This document shows positions 13,709 through 29,790 of a DNA stretch of 64,000 bases, in pieces (position 1 is the first letter of the stretch; each line of letters starts with the position of its first letter). Origin of the DNA: Herbidospora daliensis (GTDB lineage: Bacteria; Actinomycetota; Actinomycetes; Streptosporangiales; Streptosporangiaceae); assembly GCF_001570585.1 (NCBI RefSeq), contig NZ_BBXF01000003.1, positions 469,353 to 533,352 on the forward strand, in the 5' to 3' direction. Made by a program: the position numbers and the translations under genes. The notes under the pieces were generated by a model. It was given only the letters and a program-made list of their open reading frames with translations. It did not search any database and was not told the origin of the DNA.

Positions 13709-15886
13709 ATGACACGCAGACGTGTCATCGCGTTAGCAGTCACCGCCCTTGCCCTCCCGTTCGCGACGCTCCTCCCCGCCACCGCCGGGGCCGCCGCGCC
13801 GGCGCCGTCCTCCGCGCCGCTGAACGACTTCCGGCACTGGGACGGAAAGCTCGCCGACACCTTCCAGGGCAAGGAGATCGACCTGCCGGCCCGGTACGAG
13901 CCGTCCAAGGCCCGGAAGTCGACCGCCGCGGCGGCGGCCACCCCGCCGGTGGGCACGGTGCGGAACTGGCTGGCCATCGACGACACGCAGGCCGGGGGAG
14001 CGCCGTTCCCGAAGGAGTTCACCCTCCGCGGCGTCGGCGACAAGATCGAGGTGTGGGTCGCGAACGATCTGTCGTTCCCGGCCGGGGACTGCCGGGCGCA
14101 GATCCCGAACTCCACGACGATCACCGACGCGCAGGTCGCCTACTTCGTCAACGAGTTCGACACGAACATGTACCCGAAGGAGACGGCGGCCTTCTCCACC
14201 CCGCCCGACCGCGACGGGACCAACGCCCGCATCCCCGGCGACTACACCGGTGACGGCGACAAGACGGTCGCGCTGATCGACAACGTCCGCGACGACAACT
14301 TCTACGACTTCCCGGCCAACCCGACCTACATCGCGGGCTTCTTCTCGGCCGGCATCAACGAGCGCGTCGACCGCAACGTCATGACCGTCGACGCCTTCGA
14401 CTGGGCCCACCGGACCGGCGACGCCCCGGCCGACGAGCCCACGAGCGACCTGTGCACCAGCCGCCCGGCCCGCCCGAACGCGTACGAGGGCACGTTCGCG
14501 CACGAGTGGCAGCACCTGCTCATGTACTACACCGACCCGTTCGAGGGGAACTGGATCAACGAGGGCCTCTCCGACTTCGCCCAGACCCTCACCGGCTACG
14601 TCGACGCCAGGGCGACCATCAACGACTTCGGCGCCGACAGCCACATCTACTGCTTCCAGGGCTTCGGCAACGTCCAGGCCCGGTACAACCCCAACCCGAG
14701 GCAGTGCGGCGGCCCGCAGAACTCGCTGACCCTCTGGGGTGAGGGCGAGCCGAGCGAGGTGCTCGCCGACTACGGCAACGCCTACGAGATCATGCTCTTC
14801 CTGTACGACCGCTACGGCGCCGGCTTCATGTCCACGCTGCACCGCGACGGCGAGCACCAAGGCCTGGCCAGCCTGGACGCCGCGCTGAAGGCGAAGGGCG
14901 CCGACCTCTACCGGGTCATCCACGACTACCAGTCGATGGTCCTGCTCGACCGGATCGTGGAGAGCCGCACCGGCATCGTGCTGGGCGTGCCCAAGTCGCG
15001 GGTCACCTCGGCCTCGCTGAGCTCCACGGTGAACCTCGCCAACCCCGACACCTACGACACCCCCGGCGCCGCCCCCAACGGCGCCGACTACGTGACGCTC
15101 CAGAAGGCCAACGGCCAGCCGTTCAAGGGCAGCGAGCTGCGCACCCTGAAGTTCACCGGCGCGACCGGCCTGCCCGCCCTGCCGCTCGCCTGGACGATCG
15201 TGAGCGACGAGCCCGACCGCCCCGGCAACCCGGTGCTGTTCTCCGGCAACGAGAACAACCTGAACGTCAGCGCCGTGGCCGAGGTGAGCGTCCCGGCCGC
15301 CGACCCGACCCTGCGCCTGCTGGCCAAGTACGGCGCCGAGGAGGGCTACGACTACGGCTACGTCGTCGTCTCCACCGACGGCGGCGCGACCTACACCCCC
15401 GTCGCGGGCGACCAGACCGTCGAGGGCCCGCTCGGCCCGTCGCTGAACGGCACCACCAGCGGCTTCGAGCCGCACACGTTCGACCTGTCCGCCTACGCGG
15501 GCCAGAACATCCTGCTCGGCTTCCAGTACGTCTCCGACGGCGGCGTCAACGAGGGCGGGATCCACCTCGACGACATCACCGTCGGCGGCACCGCCGTCAG
15601 CGACGGCTCCAGCCTGGAGCCGTTCGACTCCTTCACCGAGATCAAGCCGACCGCCGTGCACAACTGGAACGTCCGCCTGGTCGGCCTCGACGAGAAGCAC
15701 AAGGTCGCCGCCCAGGTCGAGTTCAACGGCAAGGGCACGATCAACCTCAACCGCCTCGAACTCCTCCTGGCCCGGCCGTTCACCAAGATCGTGGCCATCG
15801 TGGCGTACGACGAACCGACCGAACTCGGCCAGCAGTACGCGCCCTACACCCTCACGGTGAACGGTGTGAAGCAGCCCGGCGGCTGA
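13709..15886 (+). CDS. Secreted zinc metallopeptidase (M6/M30-like)
   Basis: A 725-residue protein with a Sec or Tat-like signal peptide (MTRRR then Ala/Leu-rich, to about residue 29). The zinc site is FAHEWQHLLMYY (HExxH), with the third ligand probably in NWINEGLSDFAQ. Both the peptidase M30 (hyicolysin) and M6 (immune inhibitor A) families fit. The C-terminal 300 residues are beta-rich, including an M6-like segment ending in GIHLDDITVGG. It is exported, and the substrate is unknown. The start has a GGGGG Shine-Dalgarno 5 bases upstream. A strong hairpin 60 bases after the stop should end the transcript. Confidence 0.8.
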   Translation: MTRRRVIALAVTALALPFATLLPATAGAAAPAPSSAPLNDFRHWDGKLADTFQGKEIDLPARYEPSKARKSTAAAAATPPVGTVRNWLAIDDTQAGGAPFPKEFTLRGVGDKIEVWVANDLSFPAGDCRAQIPNSTTITDAQVAYFVNEFDTNMYPKETAAFSTPPDRDGTNARIPGDYTGDGDKTVALIDNVRDDNFYDFPANPTYIAGFFSAGINERVDRNVMTVDAFDWAHRTGDAPADEPTSDLCTSRPARPNAYEGTFAHEWQHLLMYYTDPFEGNWINEGLSDFAQTLTGYVDARATINDFGADSHIYCFQGFGNVQARYNPNPRQCGGPQNSLTLWGEGEPSEVLADYGNAYEIMLFLYDRYGAGFMSTLHRDGEHQGLASLDAALKAKGADLYRVIHDYQSMVLLDRIVESRTGIVLGVPKSRVTSASLSSTVNLANPDTYDTPGAAPNGADYVTLQKANGQPFKGSELRTLKFTGATGLPALPLAWTIVSDEPDRPGNPVLFSGNENNLNVSAVAEVSVPAADPTLRLLAKYGAEEGYDYGYVVVSTDGGATYTPVAGDQTVEGPLGPSLNGTTSGFEPHTFDLSAYAGQNILLGFQYVSDGGVNEGGIHLDDITVGGTAVSDGSSLEPFDSFTEIKPTAVHNWNVRLVGLDEKHKVAAQVEFNGKGTINLNRLELLLARPFTKIVAIVAYDEPTELGQQYAPYTLTVNGVKQPGG

Positions 15887-17102: not shown

Positions 17103-18071
17103 ATGCTGACAATCCTCCCGGAGAACATTCACCCCAACCCGTGGGATCTCTACGACGAGACCTACGCCGGTCTGGACGTCCACGTCTTCCCGCCGGACGA
17201 CGACGACGAGCAGCTGCCGGCCGCCGGCACGGTGGCGTGGCGGATCGCCGAGCCCGACGCCTACGACGCCGAGGAGGGCGCGTTCGCCGGGACCCTCCAG
17301 GTGTTCCTCGACCAGGTCGCGACCGAAGAGGTGCGGGCGCTGGTCATCGGGTGCTGGGAGCAGGCGTACGACACCGACTCCTCCGTGATCGTCAGCCTGC
17401 TGGCCGAGAACGCCAAGCGGTTCCCGGCGCTGCGGGCGATCTTCCTGGGCGCGATCCAGTCGGAGGAGGCGGAGATCTCCTGGATCCAGCAGTCCGACGT
17501 GACCGCGCTGCTGACCGCCTTCCCGCAGCTGGAGCGGCTGGAGGTGCGGGGCGGCAGCGGCCTGGCCCTGTCTCCCGTCCGGCACGAGAACCTGCGCGTG
17601 TTGCGGTTCGAGACCGGCGGGCTGCCCGCCGAGGTGGTGCGCGCGGTCGCCGCGTCCGACCTGCCCGCGCTGGAGCACCTCGACCTGTGGCTCGGCATCG
17701 ACAACTACGGCGGCGACTCCACGGTCGCCGACCTGGCCCCGATCCTGGCCGGCGACCGGCTGCCCGCGCTGAAGCACCTGGGGCTGCAGGACAGCGACCA
17801 CCAGGACGAGATCGCCGCCGCCGTCGCCGCGGCCCCGATCGTGGCCCGTCTCGACGTGTTGTCGCTGGCCATGGGGACGCTGGGCGACGAGGGCGCCGAG
17901 GCGCTGCTCAGCGGGCAGCCGCTGAGCCACCTGAAGGTGCTCGACCTGCGCCACAACTACATCACCGACCCGCTGGCCGAGCGCCTGCGCGTGTTCGTCG
18001 GCGACGCCGAACTCGACCTGGCGGAGCGCAAGGAGCGCGACGACTGGATCTACGTGTCGGTGGCCGAGTGA
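17103..18071 (+). CDS. STM4015-family leucine-rich protein, copy 1
   Basis: 322 residues. After an acidic N-terminus it has a leucine-rich series of irregular repeats: LPALRAIFLG-type, FPQLERLEVRG, LPALEHLDLWLG, LPALKHLGLQDS and LSHLKVLDLRHN. The sequence between them (SWIQQSDVTALLTAFP) is nearly the same in the next three genes. This is the STM4015 family, named after a Salmonella locus; its function is unknown. ATG 17103 has AGGAA 8 bases upstream. It heads a run of genes with GTGA overlaps. LRR proteins usually bind other proteins, so a role in substrate recognition for the enzymes downstream is a reasonable guess only. Confidence 0.8.
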   Translation: MLTILPENIHPNPWDLYDETYAGLDVHVFPPDDDDEQLPAAGTVAWRIAEPDAYDAEEGAFAGTLQVFLDQVATEEVRALVIGCWEQAYDTDSSVIVSLLAENAKRFPALRAIFLGAIQSEEAEISWIQQSDVTALLTAFPQLERLEVRGGSGLALSPVRHENLRVLRFETGGLPAEVVRAVAASDLPALEHLDLWLGIDNYGGDSTVADLAPILAGDRLPALKHLGLQDSDHQDEIAAAVAAAPIVARLDVLSLAMGTLGDEGAEALLSGQPLSHLKVLDLRHNYITDPLAERLRVFVGDAELDLAERKERDDWIYVSVAE

Positions 18072-18907
18072 CCCACGTTGACCTGGGCGTGGGGATCCTC
18101 GACGAGGACGGCGACGTCCTCGACGGGCTCGACTCCTTCTTCGCCGACGCCGGCACCGGGAAGGTGTCGTCCATCGGCATCGCCGAGTGGCCGGAGATGT
18201 ACGAGGAGAGCTCGCAGGCCATCGTCGAGAAGCTGGCCGCCAACGCCCACCTGCTCCCCGGCCTGCGCGGCCTGTCCCTGGGCCACGTCGACCCGGAGTT
18301 GTGCGAGATCTCCTGGATCCAGCTCAGCGACCTCACGCCGCTGCTGACCGCCTTCCCCGGCCTGGAGCGCCTCGACCTGCGGGGGAGCGACGGGCTGGCG
18401 CTGACCCCGCTCCGGCACGAGAGCCTGCGGGTGCTCCGGGTGGAGTGCGGCGGCCTGCAGAGCTCGTTCGTCCGGTCGGTCGCCGCCTGCGACCTGCCCG
18501 CGCTGGAGCACCTGGAGCTCTGGTTAGGGGTCGAGCGCTACGGCGGGAACACCTCGGTCGTCGACCTGGCCCCGATCCTGGCCGGCGACCGGCTGCCCGC
18601 CCTGAAGCACCTGGGGCTGCAGGACAGCGAGATCCAGGACGAGATCGCCGCCGCCGTTGCCTCCGCGCCCGTCGTGGCCCGGCTCGACGAACTCGACCTC
18701 TCGATGGGCATGCTGACCGACGTGGGGGCCGAGGCGCTGCTCGACGGCCAGCCGCTCAGCCACCTGAGGCTCCTCGACCTGCACCACAACTTCCTCAGCG
18801 AGGCGATGGCCGAGCGCGTCGAGAAGGCGCTGCCGGGGGTCGACGTGAAGCTGCACGACCGCCACGCGCCCCGCGACGACCGCTTCTACGTGGCGGTGTC
18901 CGAGTGA
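18068..18907 (+). CDS. STM4015-family leucine-rich protein, copy 2 (short N-terminus)
   Basis: 279 residues from the GTG that overlaps the previous stop (GTGA). The body matches copy 1, including SWIQLSDLTPLLTAFP, LPALEHLELWLGVERYGG, LPALKHLGLQDS and LSHLRLLDLHHN. About 35-40 N-terminal residues present in the other three copies are missing: the protein starts directly in THVDLGVGILDEDGDVLDGL. No alternative in-frame start restores the block without entering the previous gene. It may be a diverged paralogue that binds a different partner. Confidence 0.78.
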   Translation: MTHVDLGVGILDEDGDVLDGLDSFFADAGTGKVSSIGIAEWPEMYEESSQAIVEKLAANAHLLPGLRGLSLGHVDPELCEISWIQLSDLTPLLTAFPGLERLDLRGSDGLALTPLRHESLRVLRVECGGLQSSFVRSVAACDLPALEHLELWLGVERYGGNTSVVDLAPILAGDRLPALKHLGLQDSEIQDEIAAAVASAPVVARLDELDLSMGMLTDVGAEALLDGQPLSHLRLLDLHHNFLSEAMAERVEKALPGVDVKLHDRHAPRDDRFYVAVSE

Positions 18908-19845
18908 TCTCCCTCAGCCTGCCGCCGCGGCTCAAAAACGAGCGGTACTTCGACCGCTACGCCAACCTGCCGATTGTCGGCTTCACCGCCGACGCGCCCG
19001 AACAACCGCCGGGCGGCAGCGGGGCCTGGCACCTGGCGGTCATGGAGGAGGACATCCTCGAGCAGATGGACGCCTTCTTCGACCGCGTCGACACCGAGAC
19101 GGTGCCCGCCCTGGTGCTCGGCTACTGGGCCGACCTCTACCAGACGAGCTCGGCGCCCATCGTGGCGAAGCTGGCCGCCAACGCGCACCGGCTGCCCGCC
19201 CTCCGGGCCCTGTTCCTGGGGGCGGTGTCGAGCGAGGCGTGCGAGATCTCCTGGATCAAGCAGAGCGACGTCACCGCGCTGCTGACCGCGTTCCCCGATC
19301 TGGAGCGCCTGGAGATCCGGGGCGGTGACGGCCTGGCCCTCAGCCCGGTCCGGCACGAGAAGCTGCGCATGCTCCGCGTGGAGACCGGCGGTCTGAGCGG
19401 CGCGTTCATCCGGGGACTCGCCGCCTGCGACCTGCCCGCGCTGGAGCACCTGGAGCTCTGGCTCGGCGTCGAGCAGTACGGCGGCGACTACACCGTCGAC
19501 GACCTCGCGCCGATCCTGAGGGGCGACCGGCTGCCCGCCCTCAAGCACCTGGGCCTGCAGGACAGCGACCGCCAGGACGAGATCGCCGCCGCCGTCGCGG
19601 CCGCGCCGGTCGTGGCCCAGCTGGAGAACCTCGCCCTGTCGATGGGCGTGCTGACCGACGAGGGCGCGGAGGCCCTGCTCAGCGGCCAGCCGCTGACCCA
19701 CCTCGACCAACTCGACCTGCACCACCACTACCTCAGCGACCAGATGATCAAGCGCGTCGAGAAGGCGCTGTTCGTGGTGGGCGTCGACCTCGGCGACCGC
19801 CAGTACGACGACGAAGGATGGTTCTACGTGGCGGTGGACGAGTGA
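18904..19845 (+). CDS. STM4015-family leucine-rich protein, copy 3
   Basis: 313 residues, starting at the GTG overlapping the stop of copy 2. The N-terminal block ISLSLPPRLKNERYFDRYAN is followed by the shared LRR body: SWIKQSDVTALLTAFP, LALSPVRHEKLRMLRVETGG, LPALEHLELWLGVEQYGGDY and LTHLDQLDLHHHYLSD. It is closest to copy 4 in the last third. The tandem order with identical overlaps shows that the array grew by duplication. No transmembrane or export signal is seen. Confidence 0.8.
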   Translation: MISLSLPPRLKNERYFDRYANLPIVGFTADAPEQPPGGSGAWHLAVMEEDILEQMDAFFDRVDTETVPALVLGYWADLYQTSSAPIVAKLAANAHRLPALRALFLGAVSSEACEISWIKQSDVTALLTAFPDLERLEIRGGDGLALSPVRHEKLRMLRVETGGLSGAFIRGLAACDLPALEHLELWLGVEQYGGDYTVDDLAPILRGDRLPALKHLGLQDSDRQDEIAAAVAAAPVVAQLENLALSMGVLTDEGAEALLSGQPLTHLDQLDLHHHYLSDQMIKRVEKALFVVGVDLGDRQYDDEGWFYVAVDE

Positions 19846-20759
19846 CGATCTCCCTCGACCTGCCCCGGCACCCCGACGAGACCGACGTCTACTACGGCAG
19901 CTACGCCGGCCTTCCGACCGTCAACTTCTTCGGCACGGCCGACCACCCGCCGGGCGAGGTGGCCTGGTTCGTCCAGGACGAGAGCCTCGCCGGGTTCTTC
20001 GACGTCGTCGACCTCGCCCGGGTGCGCGCCCTCGTGATCGGCGGCTGGGACACCAGCGCCCCCGGCCTCGTCCGGGAGCTCGTCGCCGCGGCCCACCGGC
20101 TGCCGGCGCTGCGGGCGCTGTTCTTCGGGGCGATCCCCTCGGAGGCGCAGGAGATGTCGTGGATCAACCAGACCGACGTCACCCCGCTGCTGACCGCGTT
20201 CCCCGCCCTGGAACGCCTGGAGACCCGGGGCAGCATGGGCCTGCACCTCTCCCCGGTCCGCCACGAGCGGCTGCGCATGCTCCGGCTCGAGAGCGGCGGG
20301 CTCGGCGACGACGTCGTGCGCGGCGTGGCAGCGTGTGAGTTCCCGGCCCTGGAGCACCTGGAGCTCTGGCTCGGCGTCGACGAATACGGCGGCGACTACA
20401 CCGTCGAGGACGTCGCCCCGATCCTGACCGGCGACCGGCTGCCCGCCCTGAAGCACCTGGGCCTGCAGGACAGCGACCGCCAGAACGACGTCGCCGCCGC
20501 CGTCGCGACCGCCCCGATCGTGGCCCGGCTCCACGGCCTGGCCCTGTCGATGGGCACGCTCACCGACGAGGGCGCCGAGGCGCTGCTCAGCGGGCAGCCG
20601 CTCACCCATCTGCGGCGGCTCGACCTGCACCACCACTACCTGAGTGACGCCATGTCGGCCCGCCTGCGCGCCGCCCTGCCCACGGTCGACCTCGACCTCG
20701 ACAGTCAGCTCGACCCCGACGAGGACGAGGGCTGGCTCTACACGTCGGTGGGCGAGTGA
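19842..20759 (+). CDS. STM4015-family leucine-rich protein, copy 4
   Basis: 305 residues from the GTG in the GTGA overlap with copy 3. The N-terminus (TISLDLPRHPDETDVYYGSY) parallels copy 3, and the LRR body has LPALRALFFGAIPSEAQEMS, LALERLETRG-like and LPALKHLGLQDSDRQNDVAA segments. An upstream in-frame GTG at 19818 would add eight residues but lies deep in the previous gene. Its stop overlaps the STM4014-like gene by 4 bases. Confidence 0.8.
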   Translation: MTISLDLPRHPDETDVYYGSYAGLPTVNFFGTADHPPGEVAWFVQDESLAGFFDVVDLARVRALVIGGWDTSAPGLVRELVAAAHRLPALRALFFGAIPSEAQEMSWINQTDVTPLLTAFPALERLETRGSMGLHLSPVRHERLRMLRLESGGLGDDVVRGVAACEFPALEHLELWLGVDEYGGDYTVEDVAPILTGDRLPALKHLGLQDSDRQNDVAAAVATAPIVARLHGLALSMGTLTDEGAEALLSGQPLTHLRRLDLHHHYLSDAMSARLRAALPTVDLDLDSQLDPDEDEGWLYTSVGE

Positions 20760-21790
20760 TCGTCGTCGGGACTCCGGGAGACCGCCGCACCGACCTGTTC
20801 GGCGCGGCGGCCCGCGCGCACGGCCTGGGCGAGGTCACCGTGGTCCCGTGGACGGACGTCCTGACCGGCGTCCCGCTCGCGTTCTCCGGTCTGGTCCGGG
20901 TCGACTCGCCCGGCGAGTCGGCCGAGGCCGACGCCCTGCTGCGCGGTGCGGGCGACCCCACCCGCGTCGGGGGAGGGGCGACCTGGTACACCCGGTTCGT
21001 GGACGGACTCGGACGGGTGGCCGGAGCGGGCGGCGAACTGCTGGCGGACGTGGGCGAGATCGCCGCCATGTTCGACAAGCGCCGCTGCCACGCCCTGCTG
21101 GCCGGGGCGGGCCTGCCGGTGCCCGGCGGCACGACCGTGCGGTCCTACGGCGAGCTGCGCGACCAGATGCGGGCGCGGTCGTGGCCCAGGGTGTTCGTGA
21201 AGCCCGCCCACGGCAGTTCGGCGTCGGGGGTGATCGCCTTCGAGACCTCCGGCACCCGTCTGCGCGCCGTCACCTCGGCCACCGAGGACCTGCGGAACTC
21301 GCTGGCGGTCCGGACGTACACCGACGAATCGACCGTCGCCCGGATCGTCGACGCGCTGGCCCCCGACGGGCTCCACGTCGAGCGCTGGTTCCCGAAGGCG
21401 TCGGTGGCGGGCGGCTGCTTCGACCTGCGGGTGGTGACGGTGGCCGGGCGGCCGACCCATGCGGTGGCGCGGGTGAGCCGGGTGCCGATGACCAACCTGC
21501 ACCTGGGCGGCAAACGGGGCGACCTGGGGGAGATCCGGGCCCGGCTGGGCGCCGGCCGGTGGGACGAGGCGATGGACGTCTGCGCCCGCACCGCCGCGTG
21601 CTTCCCCGGCAGCCTGACGACCGGCGTCGACCTGATGATCGGCGCCGACTGGCGGTCGATGGCGGTCGCCGAGGTCAACGCCTTCGGCGACCTGCTGCCC
21701 GGCCTGGGCGCGCTCGACGGCAGCGGCCTGACGACCTACGAGTGCCAGGCGCGGGCCGTCGCGGCGGGGTGGCGATCGTGCTCGACATGA
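20756..21790 (+). CDS. STM4014-family protein, ATP-grasp-like
   Basis: 344 residues. The middle resembles an ATP-grasp ligase: DKRRCHALLAGAGLPVPGG begins the lid region, VFVKPAHGSSASGV carries the ATP-binding lysine and glycine-rich loop, and VDLMIGADWRSMAVAEVNAF holds the Asp, Glu and Asn expected to bind Mg-ATP near residues 285-305. ATP-grasp enzymes join a carboxylate to an amine or thiol through an acyl phosphate. The family (STM4014) always lies near STM4011-4013 relatives and has no assigned reaction as far as I know. The start is the GTG at the overlap with copy 4, and the stop overlaps the next gene in ATGA. Confidence 0.75.
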   Translation: MIVVGTPGDRRTDLFGAAARAHGLGEVTVVPWTDVLTGVPLAFSGLVRVDSPGESAEADALLRGAGDPTRVGGGATWYTRFVDGLGRVAGAGGELLADVGEIAAMFDKRRCHALLAGAGLPVPGGTTVRSYGELRDQMRARSWPRVFVKPAHGSSASGVIAFETSGTRLRAVTSATEDLRNSLAVRTYTDESTVARIVDALAPDGLHVERWFPKASVAGGCFDLRVVTVAGRPTHAVARVSRVPMTNLHLGGKRGDLGEIRARLGAGRWDEAMDVCARTAACFPGSLTTGVDLMIGADWRSMAVAEVNAFGDLLPGLGALDGSGLTTYECQARAVAAGWRSCST

Positions 21791-22584
21791 ACACGGTCGT
21801 GGGCAGCCACGACATCCTGCTGCTCACCCTCGACACGCTGCGGTACGACGTCGCCGAACGGCTCATGGCCGAGGGGCGCACGCCGGGCTTCGCCAAGTTC
21901 CTGACCTGGGAGAGGCGGCACAGCCCCGGCAGCTTCACCTACGCCTCGCACGCCGCGATGTTCGCCGGGTTCCTGCCGACGCCGGTCACCCCCGGCCCGC
22001 ACACCCGGCCGTTCGCGGCGGCGTTCCCGGGCAGCGCGACCACCGCCCCGGAGACCTGGGTGTTCGACGCGCCGGACCTGCCCGCCGGGCTGGCCAAGGC
22101 CGGATACCGGACCGTCTGCGTCGGCGGGGTGGGCTTCTTCAACCGGCTGAGCCCGCTGGGCTCGGTGCTGCCCGGCCTGTTCCAGGAGAGCCACTGGGAG
22201 CCCGGGTTCGGGGTGACCGCCCCCGACTCCTTCGAACGGCAGCTCGACCGCGCCGAGGAGGTGCTCGCCGGCGTCCAGGAACCGGTTTTTCTTTTCCTGA
22301 ACGTCTCGGCGCTGCACCAGCCCAACCGGTTCCACCTGCCCGGCGCGGCCGACGACTCGATCGAGTCGCACGCGGCCGCGCTGGAGTACGTCGACCGGCA
22401 CGTCGCCCGGTTGTTCGCCCTGATGACCCGCCGCCGGCCGTGCTTCGTGATCGTCTGCTCCGACCACGGCACCGCCTACGGCGAGGACGGCCACGTCGGC
22501 CACCGGCTCGCGCACGACGTCGTCTGGACCGTCCCCTACGCCGAATTCGTCCTCAACCGGAGCTCCGATGATCAGTCCGTATGA
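21787..22584 (+). CDS. STM4013/SEN3800-family hydrolase (alkaline-phosphatase/sulfatase fold)
   Basis: 265 residues. The first strand ends in LLLTLDTLRYD, where Asp and Thr match the metal and nucleophile site of the alkaline phosphatase superfamily. The C-terminal CSDHGTAYGEDGHVGHRLAHD supplies the paired Asp/His and further His metal ligands. It is predicted to cleave a phosphate or sulfate ester or move a phosphoryl group. The substrate is unknown. I chose ATG 21787 in the ATGA overlap; GTGs at 21769 and 21778 are possible but weaker. The 3' end overlaps STM4012 by 17 bases. Confidence 0.78.
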   Translation: MNTVVGSHDILLLTLDTLRYDVAERLMAEGRTPGFAKFLTWERRHSPGSFTYASHAAMFAGFLPTPVTPGPHTRPFAAAFPGSATTAPETWVFDAPDLPAGLAKAGYRTVCVGGVGFFNRLSPLGSVLPGLFQESHWEPGFGVTAPDSFERQLDRAEEVLAGVQEPVFLFLNVSALHQPNRFHLPGAADDSIESHAAALEYVDRHVARLFALMTRRRPCFVIVCSDHGTAYGEDGHVGHRLAHDVVWTVPYAEFVLNRSSDDQSV

Positions 22585-23818
22585 GAGTTACGTCTACGCG
22601 TACCCCCACAAGACGGCCTATCGGCCGCTCGACCCGCGCCCGGCGCTGACCGACGTGTGGCGGGGCGAGCGGGCCGGGTCGTTCTACGCCCACATCCCGT
22701 TCTGCGAGATGCGCTGCGGCTTCTGCAACCTGTTCACCCGGACGGGCGCCCCCGAAGAACTGGTGGCGGCCTACCTCGACGCGCTCGAACGCGAGACGCT
22801 GGCCCTGGCCGACGCCCTCGACCCGGCGTTCACCACGGCGGCGATCGGCGGCGGCACGCCCACCTACCTGAGCCCGGCCGAGCTCACCCGGTTGTTCGAC
22901 GTCACCGCCAAGATCACCCCCTGGGGAGAGATCCCGCTCTCGGTGGAGACCTCCCCGGCGACCGCGACCCCCGACCGGCTGGCCGTGCTGAAGGAACGCG
23001 GCGCGACCCGGATCTCCATCGGGGTGCAGAGCTTCGTCGACGACGAGGCCCGCGCGGCGGTGCGCCCGCAGAAGCGGGCCGAGGTGGACGCGGCCCTCGA
23101 CGCGATCAGGGCGACCGGCTTCCCGATCCTCAACATCGACCTCATCTACGGCATCGACGGCCAGACCCCGGCGTCGTGGCGGCACTCCCTGGAGACCGCG
23201 CTGCGCTGGGCCCCCGAGGAGCTCTACCTCTACCCCCTCTACGTACGCCCCCTCACCGGCCTCGGCAAGATCGGCCGCGACTGGGACGACCAGCGTATGG
23301 AGCTCTACCGGGAGGGCCGCGACCTGCTGCTCGGCCGGGGCTACGAGCAGGTGTCGATGCGCATGTTCCGGCTGCCCGGCACCGGGACCTCCACCGACTA
23401 CTGCTGCCAGACCGACGGCATGGCGAGCGTGGGGTGCGGGGCCCGGTCGTACACGAGCACCCTGCACTACTCCCACGAGTACGCGGTCGGCGCCCGCCAC
23501 GTCCGGTCGATCATCGACGACTACGTGCGCCGCGACGACTTCACCGAGGCCCTGATCGGCTTCACCCTGAGCGACGCGGAACGGCGGCGACGCCACACCG
23601 TCCAGAGCCTGCTCCAGAAGGACGGCCTCGACCTGGGCCTCTACCGGAGCCGGTTCGGCGGCGACCCCGACGTCACGGCGGTGCCGGCCGGATGGCTGGT
23701 GCGCGACGGCGACGTGCTGCGGCTGACCGACGACGGCCTGGCCCACTCCGACGCGGTCGGGCCGGCCCTGTTCTCCGCCGAGGTCCGCGCCCTGATGGCG
23801 GGCAACGACGCCCGATGA
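22568..23818 (+). CDS. STM4012-family radical SAM protein
   Basis: 416 residues. The [4Fe-4S] motif is C46-E-M-R-C50-G-F-C53, in the order CxxxCxxC. It is followed by GGGTPTYL, SVETSP and RISIGVQSF, which resemble HemN/HemW radical SAM proteins. An extra CCQTDGMASVGCGARSYTS stretch near residues 278-296 matches the HemN-like substrate region. It is unlikely to be HemW itself because of its fixed place in the STM401x cluster. It probably forms a 5'-deoxyadenosyl radical to modify a substrate made or held by its neighbours. Confidence 0.83.
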   Translation: MISPYESYVYAYPHKTAYRPLDPRPALTDVWRGERAGSFYAHIPFCEMRCGFCNLFTRTGAPEELVAAYLDALERETLALADALDPAFTTAAIGGGTPTYLSPAELTRLFDVTAKITPWGEIPLSVETSPATATPDRLAVLKERGATRISIGVQSFVDDEARAAVRPQKRAEVDAALDAIRATGFPILNIDLIYGIDGQTPASWRHSLETALRWAPEELYLYPLYVRPLTGLGKIGRDWDDQRMELYREGRDLLLGRGYEQVSMRMFRLPGTGTSTDYCCQTDGMASVGCGARSYTSTLHYSHEYAVGARHVRSIIDDYVRRDDFTEALIGFTLSDAERRRRHTVQSLLQKDGLDLGLYRSRFGGDPDVTAVPAGWLVRDGDVLRLTDDGLAHSDAVGPALFSAEVRALMAGNDAR

Positions 23819-24675
23819 CGCACCTGACGATCCTCTACCGCGGGCCGCTGGCCAGCTGCGACTACGACTGCGCCTACTGCCCGTTCGCCAAGCGGCGCGA
23901 CACCCCCGAGCAGCTGCGCGCCGACCGGGCGGCCCTGCTCCGCTTCACCGCCTGGACCGCCGAGCAGGACCACGAGCTGAGCGTGCTGTTCACGCCGTGG
24001 GGGGAGGGCCTGGTCAGGTCGTGGTACCGGGAGGCGATGGTCGGGCTCAGCCACCAGGCCAACATCCGCCGCGTGGCCGTCCAGACCAACCTCAGCTCCC
24101 GGACCGGCTGGCTCGACCGGGCCGACCCCGAGAAGCTGGCGCTCTGGGTGACCTACCACCCGACCCAGGTGACCTACGACCGGTTCCTGGCCAAGGTCAC
24201 GGGCCTGCCGGTCCGGCACAGCGTCGGCGTCGTGGGAGACCCGGCCCACCTGGAGCACGCCCGGCGGCTCAGGAAGGACCTCCCGGCCGGCACCTACCTG
24301 TGGATCAACGCCGAGGAGGGCCGCGCCTACACCGACGAGGAGGCGGCCGACTGGCAGGAGATCGACCCGCTGTTCCACTACAGCCGCTTCCCGCATCTCA
24401 GCGCGGGCCAGGCGTGCCGGACCGGCGACACGGTGATCTCCGTGGACGGAGAGGGGACCGTCCGGCGCTGCCACTTCATCCCGACGGTCCTGGGAAATCT
24501 CTATGACGGCACGTTCCGGAACCGGCTCGGTCCGCGGGCCTGCCCGAAGCTGGAGTGCGACTGCCACATCGGCTACGTCCACCTCGAACCCACCGGCCTG
24601 TACGACGTCTTCGCCGGGGGCGTCCTGGAACGAATCCCTCACAGGGCTCTCACAGAACCGTCCAGGAAGCCCTGA
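23815..24675 (+). CDS. STM4011-family radical SAM protein
   Basis: 286 residues from the ATG in the ATGA overlap with STM4012. The radical SAM cluster is C15-D-Y-D-C19-A-Y-C22. The C-terminal 90 residues have further cysteines, about 201 (QACRTGD), 218 (RRCHFI) and 243, 248, 250 (CPKLECDCHIG). Their spacing resembles a SPASM or twitch auxiliary cluster, common in peptide-modifying radical SAM enzymes. The likely role is C-H activation of a macromolecular or peptide substrate, which is an inference. The next gene, an ABC ATPase, starts 24 bases downstream. Confidence 0.82.
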   Translation: MTHLTILYRGPLASCDYDCAYCPFAKRRDTPEQLRADRAALLRFTAWTAEQDHELSVLFTPWGEGLVRSWYREAMVGLSHQANIRRVAVQTNLSSRTGWLDRADPEKLALWVTYHPTQVTYDRFLAKVTGLPVRHSVGVVGDPAHLEHARRLRKDLPAGTYLWINAEEGRAYTDEEAADWQEIDPLFHYSRFPHLSAGQACRTGDTVISVDGEGTVRRCHFIPTVLGNLYDGTFRNRLGPRACPKLECDCHIGYVHLEPTGLYDVFAGGVLERIPHRALTEPSRKP

Positions 24676-24699: not shown

Positions 24700-25569
24700 A
24701 TGATCGAAGTGACCCGGCTGAGCAAACGCCACGGCGACGTCGTCGCCGTCGACGACCTGACGTTCGACGTGAAACCCGGCGCGGTGACCGGGTTCCTCGG
24801 GCCCAACGGGGCCGGCAAGACCACCACGATGCGGCTGATCCTCGGCCTCGCCGCCCCCAGCGCGGGGCGGGCCCGCGTCCTCGGCGCGCGGCTCGCCGAC
24901 CTGCCCGAGCCGATGCGGGCGGTCGGGGCGCTGCTGGACGCGGGGGCGCTGCACCCGCGCCGGTCGGCCCGCGACCACCTGTACTGCCTCGCGGTCGGCA
25001 ACCGGATCGGGCGGCGGCGGGTCGACGAGGTGCTCGACCTGGTCGGGCTGACGGCGGCGGCGCACCGGCACGCGGGCGGCTTCTCGCTCGGCATGAAGCA
25101 GCGCCTCGGGCTGGCCGCCGCGCTGCTCGGCGACCCCGGCGTGCTGATCCTGGACGAACCCGCCAACGGCCTCGACCCCGAGGGCATCGTCTGGATCCGC
25201 ACCCTGCTGCGCGGCCTGGCGGCCGAAGGGCGCACCGTCCTGGTCTCCAGCCACCTGATGGCCGAGACCGCGATGACCGCCGACCGGCTGATCGTGGTGG
25301 CGCGCGGGCGGCTGATCGCCGACACCACCGTCGAGGCGCTCGCCCGGCCCGAAGGGGTGCTGGTCCGCACCCCGGAGGCCCGCCGGTTCGCCCGGGTCCT
25401 GGTCACCCACGGCGCGTCGGGGGTCGAGCCCGACGGCGACGACCTCGTGGTGCGGGGGCTGGAGCCGCGGCGCATCGGCGAGCTCGCCGCCGCCGAGGGT
25501 GTGGTCCTGTACGAACTGACGCCCCGCCGCGCGTCGCTGGAAGAGGCGTTCATGGAGCTGACCCGATGA
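24700..25569 (+). CDS. ABC transporter ATP-binding protein (BcrA-like, ABC-2 type)
   Basis: 289 residues. Walker A is GPNGAGKTT near 38-46, the signature is FSLGMKQRLGLAAALL near 127-142, and Walker B is GVLILDEPANGLDP. The C-terminal extension (PEGVLVRTPEARRFARVL onward) is the beta-domain of the bacitracin/DrrA-type exporters. It pairs with the permease that overlaps it by 4 bases. It may export a product of the STM401x genes, or protect the membrane from an antimicrobial. Confidence 0.88.
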   Translation: MIEVTRLSKRHGDVVAVDDLTFDVKPGAVTGFLGPNGAGKTTTMRLILGLAAPSAGRARVLGARLADLPEPMRAVGALLDAGALHPRRSARDHLYCLAVGNRIGRRRVDEVLDLVGLTAAAHRHAGGFSLGMKQRLGLAAALLGDPGVLILDEPANGLDPEGIVWIRTLLRGLAAEGRTVLVSSHLMAETAMTADRLIVVARGRLIADTTVEALARPEGVLVRTPEARRFARVLVTHGASGVEPDGDDLVVRGLEPRRIGELAAAEGVVLYELTPRRASLEEAFMELTR

Positions 25570-26333
25570 TCGACGCGATCCGCTCCGAATGGGCCAAGAC
25601 CCGCACCACCCGGTCGACGTGGTTCACCCTCGCCGCGATCGTCGCGCTCGGCGCCCTGTTCGCGGTGCTGTTCGGCTACGCCGCCGCCGCGGAACACGCC
25701 CGGCTGACCGCCGCCGAGCAGGCCGCCTACCGGCCCGCGCCCGACTTCCGGCCGTTGATCTTCGTGCAGATCGCCGTCGGCTACTTCGGCCTGCGCGCCT
25801 TCACCGTCGAACACCTCACCGGGACGATGACGCCGACCCTCACCACGGTGCCCCGCCGGGGGCGGGTGCTGGCCGCCAAGGCGATCGTCTGCGCCGCGCT
25901 GACGCTCGCGGCCGGGACGGTGACCGGGCTCCTCGTGGTCTTCGTCAACCGGGCCGTGCTGGCCTCCCGGCAGGTGCCCCTGAACGCGCTGACCGAGCCC
26001 GGCATGCTCCGGGTGCTGGCCGGGCCGGGCCTGCTGCTGGCCCTGCTCGCGCTGATCGGCCTGGCCGCCGGCTGCCTGGTGCGCAGCACCGCCGGGGCGC
26101 TGGTCATCACCATCGTGGCCGGGGTGTTCGTGCCGGCGATGGCCTCGCTCTACCCCGAGTGGCTGGCCCGGCTGATCCTGAGCTACTGGCCGATCACCGC
26201 CGGGCTGCGGCTGCTCAGCCTCGACGCCGACCCCGACCTGCCGGGACCGGCGGCCGGAATCGCCGTGACCTGCGCGTGGGCCGTGATCCTGCTGGCCGCC
26301 GCCTACGCGGTGTTCCGGCGGCGGGACGCATGA
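25566..26333 (+). CDS. ABC-2 type permease
   Basis: 255 residues with six predicted membrane helices (for example around 20-40, 65-80, 105-130, 150-170, 180-200 and 225-250). The N-terminal AIRSEWAKTRTTRSTW and the TVPRRGRVLAAKAIVC loop are typical of actinobacterial ABC-2 permeases. Its ATG overlaps the stop of the ATPase gene (ATGA). No substrate can be assigned. Confidence 0.82.
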   Translation: MIDAIRSEWAKTRTTRSTWFTLAAIVALGALFAVLFGYAAAAEHARLTAAEQAAYRPAPDFRPLIFVQIAVGYFGLRAFTVEHLTGTMTPTLTTVPRRGRVLAAKAIVCAALTLAAGTVTGLLVVFVNRAVLASRQVPLNALTEPGMLRVLAGPGLLLALLALIGLAAGCLVRSTAGALVITIVAGVFVPAMASLYPEWLARLILSYWPITAGLRLLSLDADPDLPGPAAGIAVTCAWAVILLAAAYAVFRRRDA

Positions 26334-26355
26334 TGTGGGGGACGAAAGGGGCGTG

Positions 26356-27033
26356 ATGGAGCGGCTGCTGGTCGTCGACGACGAACCGACCGTACGGGAA
26401 CTGCTGTCGGCGACCCTGCGCTTCGCCGGGTTCGAGGTCGCCTCGGCCGCCACGGGCACCGAGGCGGTGGAGGCGGTCCGGCTCTCCCGGCCCGACCTGA
26501 TCCTGCTCGACGTGATGCTGCCCGACCTGGACGGCTTCCAGGTCGTCCGCCGCCTGCGCGAGCTGGCCCGCCCGCCGGTCCCGGTGCTGTTCCTGACCGC
26601 CCGCGACTCCCCGGCCGACAAGGTCACCGGCCTCACCCTCGGCGGCGACGACTACGTCACCAAGCCGTTCGACCTGCCGGAACTGCTGGCCCGCATCCGC
26701 GCGATCCTGCGCCGCACCGGCGTCCCGCACGCCCACGCCGTGGTCGTCGGCGACCTGGAGGTCGACGTCGAGGGCTGCCACGTGCGCCGCGCCGGGGTGA
26801 CGGTCAGGCTGTCGCCCACCGAGTTCCGCCTGCTCAGCTACCTGGCCGAGCACGCGGGCCGGGTGGTGTCCAAGACCTCGATCATCGAGGACGTCTGGCA
26901 GTACGACTTCGCCGGCGACACCAGCATCGTCGACACCTACGTCAGCTACCTGCGCCGCAAACTGGAGACCGGCGGCCCCCGCCTCATCCACACCGTCCAC
27001 GGCGTCGGCTACGTCCTGCGCGAGCCCCGATGA
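26356..27033 (+). CDS. OmpR/PhoB-family response regulator
   Basis: 225 residues. The receiver has acidic residues VVDDEP near 6-11, phosphoacceptor Asp52 in LLDVMLP, and the conserved Thr and Lys in LTARD and YVTKPFD. The C-terminal winged helix has EFRLLSYLAEHAGRVVSK and the YLRRKL recognition helix. ATG 26356 follows AAGGGG; GTGs at 26353 and 26335 are alternatives. It is co-transcribed with the permease and overlaps the kinase gene by 4 bases, so it probably responds to the same cue as the ABC pump. Confidence 0.9.
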   Translation: MERLLVVDDEPTVRELLSATLRFAGFEVASAATGTEAVEAVRLSRPDLILLDVMLPDLDGFQVVRRLRELARPPVPVLFLTARDSPADKVTGLTLGGDDYVTKPFDLPELLARIRAILRRTGVPHAHAVVVGDLEVDVEGCHVRRAGVTVRLSPTEFRLLSYLAEHAGRVVSKTSIIEDVWQYDFAGDTSIVDTYVSYLRRKLETGGPRLIHTVHGVGYVLREPR

Positions 27034-28619
27034 CCTCCCTGCGCGGCCGCCTCCTCCTGATCACCTGCGCCCTGCTCGCGGCGGGCCTCCTCCTGAGCGG
27101 CTCCATCGTCGTCGGCCTGCTCCGATCGGGCCTGGTCGACCGGGTCGACACCCAACTCCGCGTCTTCGGCGGCATCATCGCCGTCATCCCACCCGCCCTC
27201 ACCTCCCGCACCCCGGCCGATCGCGCGGCCGGCAACGCCCTGAGCACCAACCTGGACCTGATCAACCGCCTGTACATCGCGGAACTGGGCCCCGACGGCA
27301 AGCCCCTCTCAGAGGTCCACCTCCCACCCGGCCCAGGCGGCCCGCAACTACCGGCCGACCTGAACGATGCCCCCAGACCAGGCGGACTCGGACCGACGGT
27401 TCGCGCTGACGGCGAGCGCAGCTCCGACGACCCCGAGTCGACCGCCCGCAAGTCGGCAGCCCCTAAGCCGACGGTCTCTGAGCCGACGGTCTCTGATCCG
27501 ACCGACCGCGAGGCGGGCGCGGTTACTGAGCGGGCAGGTTGGGGTCAGCCCTTTGAGGCGCGGGATTCCGCGGGTGGGGCCGATTGGCGGGTGCTGGTGG
27601 TGCCGCGTCAGGGGGCCGGGACCTCCGTCGTCGTGGCGGCGTCGTTGGACGCCGTGCAGGCCACCGTCGGGCGGGTGCGGGCCATCTACCTCGTCACCGG
27701 GATCGCGCTGCTGGCGCTGCTCACGCTGGCCGGGTGGTTCGCCATCAGGGCCGGGCTGCGGCCGCTGCGGGACATCGAGGAGACCGCTGCGGCCATCGCC
27801 GCCGGGGAGCTCGGCCGGAGGGTGCCCGACGCGGCGCCCGACACCGAGGTCGGGCGGCTCTCGGATGCGCTCAACGGCATGCTGGGCCAGATCGAGCGGG
27901 CGTTCGCCGCCAGGACCGAGTCGGAGGCGCGGTTGCGGCGGTTCGTCGCCGACGTCGGGCATGAGCTGCGCACGCCGCTCGTCGGCATCAAGGGCTTCTC
28001 CGAGCTCTACCGCATGGGCGGGCTGCCCGAGGTCGCCCCGGCGATGGCCAGGATCGAGAGCGAGGCCGGGCGGCTGGCCCGGCTCGTCGAGGACCTGTTG
28101 CTGCTGGCCCGCCTCGACGAGGGCGGCGACGCGCTGCCGCTCGACCTGGCCCCGATGGACCTGCGCACCCTGGCCGCCGACGCCCGCCTCGACCTGCGCG
28201 CCCTCGCGCCCGGACGACCCGTCGAGCTGACCGGGCCCGACGGCGGGGCGCCCGGCTCGGCTCCGGTGGTCGGCGACGAGGCCCGGCTGCGCCAGGTCGT
28301 GACGAACCTGGTCGGGAACGTGGTCGAGCACACCCCCGACGGCACTCCGGTGCGCATCGGGGTCGGAACCAGGGACGGTGAGGCCGTGCTGGTGATCGAG
28401 GACCACGGCCCGGGCCTCACCCCGGAGGAGGCCGCCCTGGTCTTCGACCGCTTCTCCCGCGCCGACGCCTCCCGCAGCAGGTCGGGACCCGGCGGCGCGG
28501 GCCTCGGCCTGGCCATCGCCCGCTCCCTCGCGGAGGCCCACGGAGGCCGCCTCGACCTGCGGACCGCACCCGGCCAGGGGGCCGCCTTCACCTTGGTCAT
28601 GCCCGGTGCGCCGACCTGA
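27030..28619 (+). CDS. Sensor histidine kinase
   Basis: 529 residues. Membrane helix 1 is near 10-32, a long extracytoplasmic domain runs to about 215, and helix 2 is near 218-238. HAMP follows, then the H box FVADVGHELRTPL (His about 311) and the ATPase lobe with N, DHGPGL and GGAGLGLAI boxes. The sensor domain holds a low-complexity linker where a 15-base unit is repeated (27468-27497, coding PTVSE then PTVSD). The 3' end of the gene is also duplicated downstream. The ligand is unknown. Confidence 0.9.
   Translation: MTSLRGRLLLITCALLAAGLLLSGSIVVGLLRSGLVDRVDTQLRVFGGIIAVIPPALTSRTPADRAAGNALSTNLDLINRLYIAELGPDGKPLSEVHLPPGPGGPQLPADLNDAPRPGGLGPTVRADGERSSDDPESTARKSAAPKPTVSEPTVSDPTDREAGAVTERAGWGQPFEARDSAGGADWRVLVVPRQGAGTSVVVAASLDAVQATVGRVRAIYLVTGIALLALLTLAGWFAIRAGLRPLRDIEETAAAIAAGELGRRVPDAAPDTEVGRLSDALNGMLGQIERAFAARTESEARLRRFVADVGHELRTPLVGIKGFSELYRMGGLPEVAPAMARIESEAGRLARLVEDLLLLARLDEGGDALPLDLAPMDLRTLAADARLDLRALAPGRPVELTGPDGGAPGSAPVVGDEARLRQVVTNLVGNVVEHTPDGTPVRIGVGTRDGEAVLVIEDHGPGLTPEEAALVFDRFSRADASRSRSGPGGAGLGLAIARSLAEAHGGRLDLRTAPGQGAAFTLVMPGAPT
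27468..27497 (+). repeat. Two tandem 15-base units within the sensor domain
   Basis: CCGACGGTCTCTGAG is followed directly by the same unit ending in T instead of G, then a partial third copy. The units code PTVSE and PTVSD in the kinase's exposed linker. Third-position T and A are more frequent here than in neighbouring codons. Confidence 0.7.
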
Positions 28620-28710: not shown

Positions 28711-29790
28711 TCAGGTCTCCTTTTCGGGGAAGTAGTTCTCCTCGTTCACCCCGAACGTCCATGCCACGCCCTGGCGGGCTCGCTGGACCCACGGCGGCAC
28801 TCGCAGGAAGTAGGTGCGGAAGGTGCCGTCGGGTTCGGCGGTCGAGTTGACCACCTCGACCGTCACCACGTCTTCGTCGTTCGGCAGGGCGATGCGCCAC
28901 AGGATGCCCGTCTCGTCGCGGTGGAGCGGGGTCGCGCCCGACTCGGACAGGTAGCGGTCGAAGCCGAAGTGTTCCAGCATGACCCGGCGCAGCTCGGCGT
29001 TCTCCTCGTTGCGGATGCGCTCGGGGGTCAGGTTCGCCATCGACGCGACGAAGCCCTCGGGCACCGGCATGCCGTGCCAGGCCTCCAGTGCGAAGCCGTC
29101 GGGGAAGACCAGCGCGGGGCCGTCGGAGCGGTGGAGGCGGCCCGCCTCGTCGAGGTGGAGCTCGGCGGGGCGTTCGCAGACGATGGCCACCTCGGCGTAG
29201 GGGAACCACCAGCCCGCGTGGCGGGACACCCGGGTCAGCCCGGCCAGGCCGGGGGCGTCGGCGAAGGCCGACAACCAGGCGGCGTCGTGCTGGCCGAGCA
29301 CGGCGTCGAGGGCGGCCTGGCGCAGCAGGTCGCCGGCCTCCTCGCCGCCGAGCACCGACAGGCCGCGGCGGATCTCCTGGACGACCGTGTTCACCCTCGG
29401 CCAGAGCAGCGCGCCGGTCGACTCCCACACCCGGGCCCAGCCGGCCCCGCCGGTCTCGCGCAGCATGTCGGCGCGGGCCCACTCCCAGGGCTGGGTGCGC
29501 ACCTCTTCACGTACAGAGTGACCGAGCGGCTGGGCCAGCAACGGGGCGGCCGACAGGATCAGCGAGCCGAGGCCGGCCTTGTTCAGCGCGTCGACGGCGG
29601 CCTCGCCGCCGTGGTGGATGGCGGCGGCCGCGGCGGCGACGACCGGCGACCCGGCCCACAGGATCACCGAGGGCGCGGCCAGGCCGGCGGCGGCGTAGGC
29701 TTCGCGGACGCCCGCCTCGGCCTCGGCCCGGTCGCCGGGGCCGGTCGTGAAGGCGACGTCGGCCCAGGTCATGGTGGTCTCGATGCTCAT
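28711..29790 (-). CDS. DUF6745-like protein of unknown function
   Basis: 359 residues. The first half is helical, with repeated Ala-rich segments. The second half has a beta region with LHRSDGPALVFPDGFALEAW then HGMPVPEGFV, a repeat-like HG motif seen in DUF6745 proteins. No enzyme motif or export signal is visible. The ATG overlaps the stop of the upstream 100-residue gene by one base (TGATG). This two-gene pairing suggests a joint function that I cannot name. Confidence 0.55.
   Translation of the reverse strand: MSIETTMTWADVAFTTGPGDRAEAEAGVREAYAAAGLAAPSVILWAGSPVVAAAAAAIHHGGEAAVDALNKAGLGSLILSAAPLLAQPLGHSVREEVRTQPWEWARADMLRETGGAGWARVWESTGALLWPRVNTVVQEIRRGLSVLGGEEAGDLLRQAALDAVLGQHDAAWLSAFADAPGLAGLTRVSRHAGWWFPYAEVAIVCERPAELHLDEAGRLHRSDGPALVFPDGFALEAWHGMPVPEGFVASMANLTPERIRNEENAELRRVMLEHFGFDRYLSESGATPLHRDETGILWRIALPNDEDVVTVEVVNSTAEPDGTFRTYFLRVPPWVQRARQGVAWTFGVNEENYFPEKET

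Follow-up and report, generated by a model that had tools for sequence, protein, structure and literature searches.

The window analysed here, a stretch of 64,000 nucleotides from Herbidospora daliensis (contig NZ_BBXF01000003.1, positions 469,353 to 533,352), contains a run of eight genes of the STM401x system. Four copies of the leucine-rich repeat (LRR) protein STM4015 are followed by the ATP-grasp protein STM4014, the hydrolase STM4013, and two radical S-adenosylmethionine (SAM) enzymes, STM4012 and STM4011. We found that STM4015 proteins end in a conserved C-terminal tail, with a consensus of about WRYVAVSE-COOH (W-x-[YF]-[VI]-A-V-x-E), which suggests that the neighbouring enzymes work on STM4015 itself. 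In our judgement, the chances are about even that STM4015 is a substrate or carrier, with its paralogues serving as extra carriers rather than as extra recognisers. This five-gene system is widespread in bacteria and unstudied.

The C-terminal tail of STM4015

For the tail statistics, the stop codon served as the anchor for aligning the C-termini of 214 unique STM4015 proteins linked to the operon. Eight genomes occurred twice among the fetched loci, and the paralogue, motif, and locus counts throughout are given without repeats, the removal of which altered them only slightly. The final residue is Glu in 212 of the 214 ends, and the motif [YF][VITPL]x[VIAL]xE-stop is matched by 207. Position −6 is aromatic in about 97% of the ends (Tyr 80%, Phe 17%), and the other preferred residues are Val at −3 (92%), Ala at −4 (83%), Val or Ile at −5 (84%), and Trp at −8 (56%). 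The relative entropy from −1 to −8 is 4.16, 2.10, 3.34, 2.22, 2.72, 4.63, 1.12, and 2.79 bits, and upstream of the tail, from −9 to −32, it is 0.36–1.36 bits. The tail is preceded by a linker of 6–25 residues in 220 of 223 copies, 43% of which is Asp or Glu. The ends of STM4014, STM4013, and STM4011 are far less conserved, with at most 1.7 bits over the last nine residues.

The tail is also present outside the actinobacteria, where our evidence comes from plasmid records. It reads DWRYPSLTE in Paenibacillus, YRSIAVSE in Methylobacterium, EWRYVALGE and DWRFVALGE in Deinococcus, and LWYYPMITE in Bacteroides; the Salmonella tail, IYMNAMYTE, is the most deviant variant. When a DNA pattern restricted to the Y-[VI]-[AS]-V-x-E-stop form was run on 11 genomes, 34 of its 36 hits were STM4015 ends, and the reversed pattern gave 7. 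With this pattern, no other protein with the same tail was found in the 11 genomes, as the two extra matches are a TGG non-stop site and the end of a frame of about 20 codons.

Copies of STM4015 without enzyme neighbours mostly retain the tail. The aromatic residue at −6 and the Glu at −1 are kept in 15 of 17 such copies, a number that omits L077 and L091, located at contig ends. Thirteen pass the stricter motif, two (L088 and L090) have no tail, and two (L189 and the third copy of L252) hold the Tyr and Glu and miss the stricter motif. L189 is an isolated STM4015-like gene with an N-terminal extension on a Calothrix plasmid (L189:2014-3288), which scores 259 bits against a cut-off of 275 and ends in RYCSVAE. 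For the 16 copies whose genomes were checked (all but the one from Calothrix), the operon or STM4011 is present in the same genome. A fifth, unlinked STM4015 (L078) elsewhere in the genome of the window has likewise kept its tail. In Thermocatellispora (L248:5446-6923), an STM4014 on its own comes after a truncated STM4015, in which most repeats are gone and the linker and the tail, RPFVVVGE, are kept.

Gene order and distribution

The eight genes lie on the + strand in one run, 17103–24675, in the order 4015-4014-4013-4012-4011. Neighbouring genes overlap by 4 bases, except for STM4013 and STM4012, which overlap by 17. All eight products score above the NCBIfam cut-offs, so the genes, overlaps, and family names given in the initial annotation are confirmed by coordinates and scores. 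The families concerned, NF038073–NF038076 and NF006067, carry no stated function and take their names from Salmonella genes. The features are as follows.

17103..18071, + strand: STM4015 copy 1 (LRR protein, 322 aa); NF038076, 370.6 bits, cut-off 275
18045..18068, + strand: copy 1 C-terminal tail, WIYVSVAE; conserved STM4015 ends
18068..18907, + strand: STM4015 copy 2 (279 aa, short N-terminus); NF038076, 336.5 bits, cut-off 275
18881..18904, + strand: copy 2 C-terminal tail, RFYVAVSE; conserved STM4015 ends
18904..19845, + strand: STM4015 copy 3 (313 aa); NF038076, 361.4 bits, cut-off 275; AlphaFold model
19819..19842, + strand: copy 3 C-terminal tail, WFYVAVDE; conserved STM4015 ends
19842..20759, + strand: STM4015 copy 4 (305 aa); NF038076, 352.1 bits, cut-off 275
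20733..20756, + strand: copy 4 C-terminal tail, WLYTSVGE; conserved STM4015 ends
20756..21790, + strand: STM4014, ATP-grasp protein (344 aa); NF038074, 377.5 bits, cut-off 175
21787..22584, + strand: STM4013, alkaline-phosphatase-superfamily hydrolase, Thr nucleophile (265 aa); NF038075, 405 bits, cut-off 250
22568..23818, + strand: STM4012, HemN-like radical SAM enzyme (416 aa); NF006067, 572.9 bits, cut-off 380
23815..24675, + strand: STM4011, radical SAM enzyme, C-terminal conserved Cys (286 aa); NF038073, 377 bits, cut-off 200

Among the matches listed, the closest named relatives of the window STM4011 are from Herbidospora sakaeratensis (95%) and H. galbida (92%). A scan for promoters and terminators gave no signal above shuffled sequence.

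Do the STM4015 copies travel with the enzymes? The initial annotation had raised this question, and with STM4011 as the enzyme the answer is yes: STM4015 scores above the cut-off in 56 of 394 genomes of the class, and STM4011 in the identical 56. Three more genomes hold a sub-cut-off STM4011 and no STM4015. In G357, the gene is in two pieces in different frames, and in G417, one end is present with a DUF6745 fragment near it; the G171 match (48 bits) is more likely a distant relative. Two fetched loci, L236 and L237, come from genomes with STM4011 fragments and no STM4015, and L236 also has a DUF6745 fragment, which suggests joint decay. All 13 plasmid records with STM4011 also carry STM4015.

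The same gene order is found in the Salmonella, Paenibacillus, Methylobacterium, Deinococcus, and Streptomyces records, although Salmonella has one STM4015 where the window has four linked copies. The Bacteroides record has annotated STM4015, STM4014, and STM4011 genes in the same sequence; STM4012 is not annotated there, and STM4013 is represented by no more than a short match. The set may be split. G010 has STM4015 and STM4014 on one contig and STM4015, STM4013, STM4012, and STM4011 on another, so that STM4015 is in both parts, and Thermocatellispora has STM4015, STM4013, STM4012, and STM4011 at one place and STM4014 at another. The Salmonella genes gave no megablast matches in 5,426 Escherichia coli genomes, diverged copies being beyond the reach of this method. 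A role in anti-phage defence was considered and dropped, as PADLOC 2.0.0 gave a single weak match for seven proteins, a partial one of 21 bits to STM4012.

Paralogues of STM4015

The initial annotation described the set as expanded. However, multiple copies of STM4015 are common. Among the 56 genomes with STM4015, there is one match in 26, two in 15, three in 6, four in 2, and at least five in 7, with up to five candidates scored per genome and one counted match, in G236, under the cut-off. Thus, 30 of the 56 have at least two, several copies are ordinary, and the four-copy set is not unusual. A scan of named genomes with STM4011 as bait kept the top 80 out of 585 confirmed relatives, every one of them actinobacterial. 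STM4015 was found at 78 of the 80 loci, and the two others (L115 and L138) have less than 3 kb of sequence before STM4011. Counted as hidden Markov model matches above 60 bits, a few of which have odd ends, there is one STM4015 at 31 loci, two at 29, three at 6, four at 7, five at 3, and six at 2. Copies from the same genome group together as an exclusive clade in just 3 of 60 multi-copy cases, and many of the duplications therefore predate the species.

The initial annotation also proposed that the copies are recognisers, binding different target proteins for the enzymes, so that four of them would give several substrates. LRR domains commonly bind proteins, and the copy number of one to six per locus would suit this idea. 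Furthermore, copies 2–4 diverge faster than copy 1 within Herbidospora, with tree distances to two species of 0.29–0.47 as compared with 0.05. We compared 175 paralogue pairs from 60 genomes or loci, using 17 concave positions; these and the helix positions were hand-picked from the secondary structure of the AlphaFold model. The identity within a genome is 0.73 for the concave face, 0.92 for the buried strand, 0.65 for the convex helices, 0.155 for the linker, and 0.67 for the last eight residues. The concave face is more alike than the helices in 114 of the 175 pairs and less alike in 61. By this sequence comparison, then, the presumed binding face is not diversified among paralogues. Diversifying recognisers would give the opposite pattern, so the proposal is weakened, and it also leaves the tail unexplained. 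We regard it as improbable.

The enzymes

STM4014 has the motif [ED]-x-N-x-x-G-D in 109 of 109 sequences. Its nearest solved structures are weak matches, with biotin carboxylase the best, followed by 1uc8, a lysine biosynthesis enzyme that we take to be LysX, and RimK. It is under the cut-off of the RimK/LysX family TIGR00768 (23 bits as compared with 143.4).

The metal-site pattern of STM4013 is that of the alkaline phosphatase superfamily, and its nearest structures are NPP phosphodiesterases and sulfatases. On a Streptomyces albidoflavus plasmid (L183:7738-9901), a diverged STM4013 (341 bits) lies beside a small open reading frame (ORF), a NUDIX hydrolase, and a lasso-peptide B2-like protein. 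A Kitasatospora plasmid (L186) has three STM4013-like places, the best with 47.5% identity, and the one stretch inspected is without other STM401x families.

The presence of radical SAM and sulfatase-fold genes in one operon brings to mind sulfatase maturation, in which STM4011 would make formylglycine in STM4013, as an anaerobic sulfatase-maturating enzyme (anSME) does in sulfatases. The nucleophile position of STM4013, however, is Thr in 113 of 114 sequences, not Cys or Ser, and STM4012, STM4014, and STM4015 would have no part in such a reaction. We rejected this explanation on the basis of the Thr nucleophile, and find it scarcely credible.

The CxxxCxxC motif of radical SAM enzymes is present in 112 of 112 STM4012 and 107 of 107 STM4011 sequences. 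STM4012 is structurally closest to HemN and the methyltransferase NocN. It has the HemN-type sequence family and the CxxxCxxC motif in common with HemN, HemW, and NocN, and is under the cut-offs for HemW (141.7 as compared with 205.4 bits) and HemN (122 as compared with 324.95 bits). A model of STM4011, with a mean predicted local distance difference test (pLDDT) score of 81.6, resembles SkfB, viperin, BtrN, and EpeE, with template modelling (TM) scores of about 0.5; SkfB, the first match, is a maturase of a ribosomally synthesised and post-translationally modified peptide (RiPP). A search of solved structures with the STM4011 profile gave only two matches, with E values of 0.5–0.6.

Proposed mechanism

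With the families, gene order, co-conservation, tail, and motifs observed, we infer that the tail is the reaction site, and the order of steps and all of the chemistry given here are part of the same proposal. The LRR domain of STM4015 would present the short C-terminal tail on the acidic linker. STM4014 would activate one of the carboxylates of this terminal Glu and couple a small amine or an amino acid to it, in the manner of LysX and LysW. The next step would be radical chemistry by STM4011 and STM4012, directed either at the attached group or at the tail, and STM4013 would take off or pass on a phosphate or sulfate ester. Taken as a whole, this would be a new class of protein-tethered biosynthesis, with the full set in at least four bacterial phyla and a partly annotated one in Bacteroides. 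The LRR protein would be a reusable carrier whose terminal Glu is loaded by the ATP-grasp ligase, the two radical SAM enzymes and the Thr-nucleophile phospho- or sulfohydrolase would build a small molecule or tag, and the STM4015 copies would be parallel carriers. We advance this complete scheme tentatively, as a possibility with less than an even chance of being correct.

The model for this proposal is LysW. LysX joins an amino acid to the C-terminal Glu of the acidic EDWGE motif of LysW, and other enzymes then act on the tethered group (PMC10433800; PMC9303977). The likeness consists of an acidic protein with a fixed C-terminal Glu, an ATP-grasp partner, and a globular domain with a C-terminal extension. 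The differences are also clear. LysW is small (Glu54 is the last residue), with three or four Zn-binding Cys and EDWGE, whereas STM4015 is an LRR protein of about 300 aa without these, and its alignments contain no invariant or near-invariant Cys. The LysW partners are a kinase, a reductase, an aminotransferase, and a hydrolase (PMC3356886), not radical SAM enzymes like the neighbours of STM4015. STM4015 is thus not a LysW, and the analogy is one of mode of working, not of membership. The pearlins, the carrier peptides of peptide aminoacyl-tRNA ligases (PEARLs), are also similar: chemistry takes place at the C-terminus of a ribosomal carrier, and the tmo pathway includes a radical SAM enzyme (PMC9303977). 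Pfam and NCBIfam scans named no PEARL enzyme among the eight genes. Protein- or peptide-linked chemistry would be the likeliest class, and in this respect the suggestion of the initial annotation gains support.

Could the tail instead be released, as in an ordinary RiPP? The radical SAM enzymes would then cross-link or trim it, the ATP-grasp enzyme would form a side-chain or C-terminal bond, and the product would be a peptide or cofactor, in analogy with pyrroloquinoline quinone (PQQ)- or mycofactocin-like maturation. The conserved aromatic and Val residues of the tail and the presence of SkfB and EpeE among the structural matches of STM4011 are in favour of this. However, the core gene set has no protease and no transporter, and the leader would have an unusual length of about 290 residues. 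Furthermore, it is the middle of the tail that varies, with Tyr at −6 replaced by Ser in Methylobacterium and Asn in Salmonella, while the last Glu is constant. We think it quite improbable that the system is of this kind.

Besides the conserved tail, the points in favour of STM4015 as a carrier include its occurrence in the same 56 genomes as STM4011, its presence in both parts of the split set of G010, LysX and RimK among the nearest solved matches of STM4014, SkfB as the first match of STM4011, and the median isoelectric points of 4.5 for STM4015 and 8.6 for STM4014. The proposal also has several points against it, in addition to the lack of a protease and transporter just mentioned. The end of STM4012 is likewise conserved, with up to 6.15 bits, so a conserved end on its own is no proof. 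STM4014 is tied only weakly to LysX and RimK, with biotin carboxylase ahead of both. STM4013 and STM4012, with isoelectric points of 6.1 and 5.4, are acidic like STM4015, so charge does not favour their binding. STM4011, with its CxxxCxxC motif and five invariant C-terminal Cys, has no match to a SPASM family, and its TM score to SkfB and EpeE is about 0.5. Relatives of STM4013 occur without STM4011 or STM4015 in two S. albidoflavus and one Kitasatospora plasmid records.

The remaining points against it come from the structure of STM4015, and they bear on another explanation, in which the tail folds back over the LRR domain as a structural cap and STM4015 is an adaptor or scaffold for enzymes that act elsewhere. 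The AlphaFold model of copy 3 has a pLDDT of 93.6 overall, with a mean of 87 for residues 301–310 and 60 for the last three, so a large part of the tail may lie ordered against the LRR domain and not be purely flexible. Since the tail is partly docked in this model, a structural cap has to be taken seriously. The best solved match of STM4015 is 2ra8, the uncharacterised Bacteroides fragilis protein Q64V53 (E values of 1.8e-66 by sequence and 2.8e-18 by fold), which shares the LRR fold of the window proteins and has a longer N-terminal part; in the relative L185, this part has a WGR domain. The native end of 2ra8 is YPMITE, followed by eight further residues that are presumably a tag. The structure library has 351 of its residues and the sequence 362, so most of the protein may be resolved, and with it most of the native end. 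The alternating hydrophobic residues of the tail would also suit a cap, as would the concave face, which is well conserved family-wide (for example, W186, D271, and R139). Such conservation fits a common partner, which could be the enzymes or the tail itself, or perhaps a shared ligand that is not the tail. On the other hand, the last Glu, the most fixed residue after the aromatic, is among the three least confident C-terminal residues of the model, and the linker that would join the cap to the LRR domain ranges from 6 to 25 residues, with background identity. We consider the cap unlikely, if a serious contender.

Neighbouring genes

Two further genes, not linked to the system by the initial annotation, accompany most of the loci.

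28711..29790, − strand: DUF6745 protein (359 aa), associated gene; PF20530, 348.5 bits
29790..30086, − strand: small protein (98 aa) with GHAHA and HEEH motifs, associated gene; co-occurrence with STM4011 loci

DUF6745 is found at 86 of 113 distinct STM4011 loci, window included, and the small His-rich gene at 85 of 113; some of the loci without DUF6745 end early at contig ends. DUF6745 is on the strand opposite to STM4011 in 93 of 94 rows. With up to seven candidates scored per genome, high-scoring DUF6745 (at least 300 bits) is present in 32 of the 394 genomes. All 32 belong to the 56 that carry the system, and the gene shares a contig with STM4011 or STM4015, no more than about 5 kb away. 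The pair lies beside STM401x loci of Actinomycetota, Deinococcota, and Methylobacterium, and DUF6745 is absent from the Salmonella, Paenibacillus, and Bacteroides stretches. In the window, an ABC transporter and a response regulator/histidine kinase pair (24700–28619) separate STM4011 from DUF6745. In several relatives (e.g., L100 and L102), DUF6745 is the gene immediately after STM4011, on the other strand.

DUF6745 was considered as a second tailed substrate and rejected. Its end, Y-x-P-x-x-[EQ]-T, is tail-like but continuous with the folded domain, and RT or AT is also the end of 13 of 16 sequences taken from outside the operon; the remaining three are one decayed locus with QT and two others.

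Upstream of the operon, at 13709–15886, a large ORF encodes an immune inhibitor A-like MAM domain.

Significance

In the literature covered, from which subscription papers and outside preprints are excluded, no study of the function of these genes was found, and the gene names occur in two papers, in tables only. The conserved C-terminal tail, which is specific to this system, provides a concrete place to seek the reaction. If STM4015 is indeed a carrier, LRR proteins would be seen to serve as scaffolds in biosynthesis, and a substrate would be assigned to two uncharacterised families of radical SAM enzymes.

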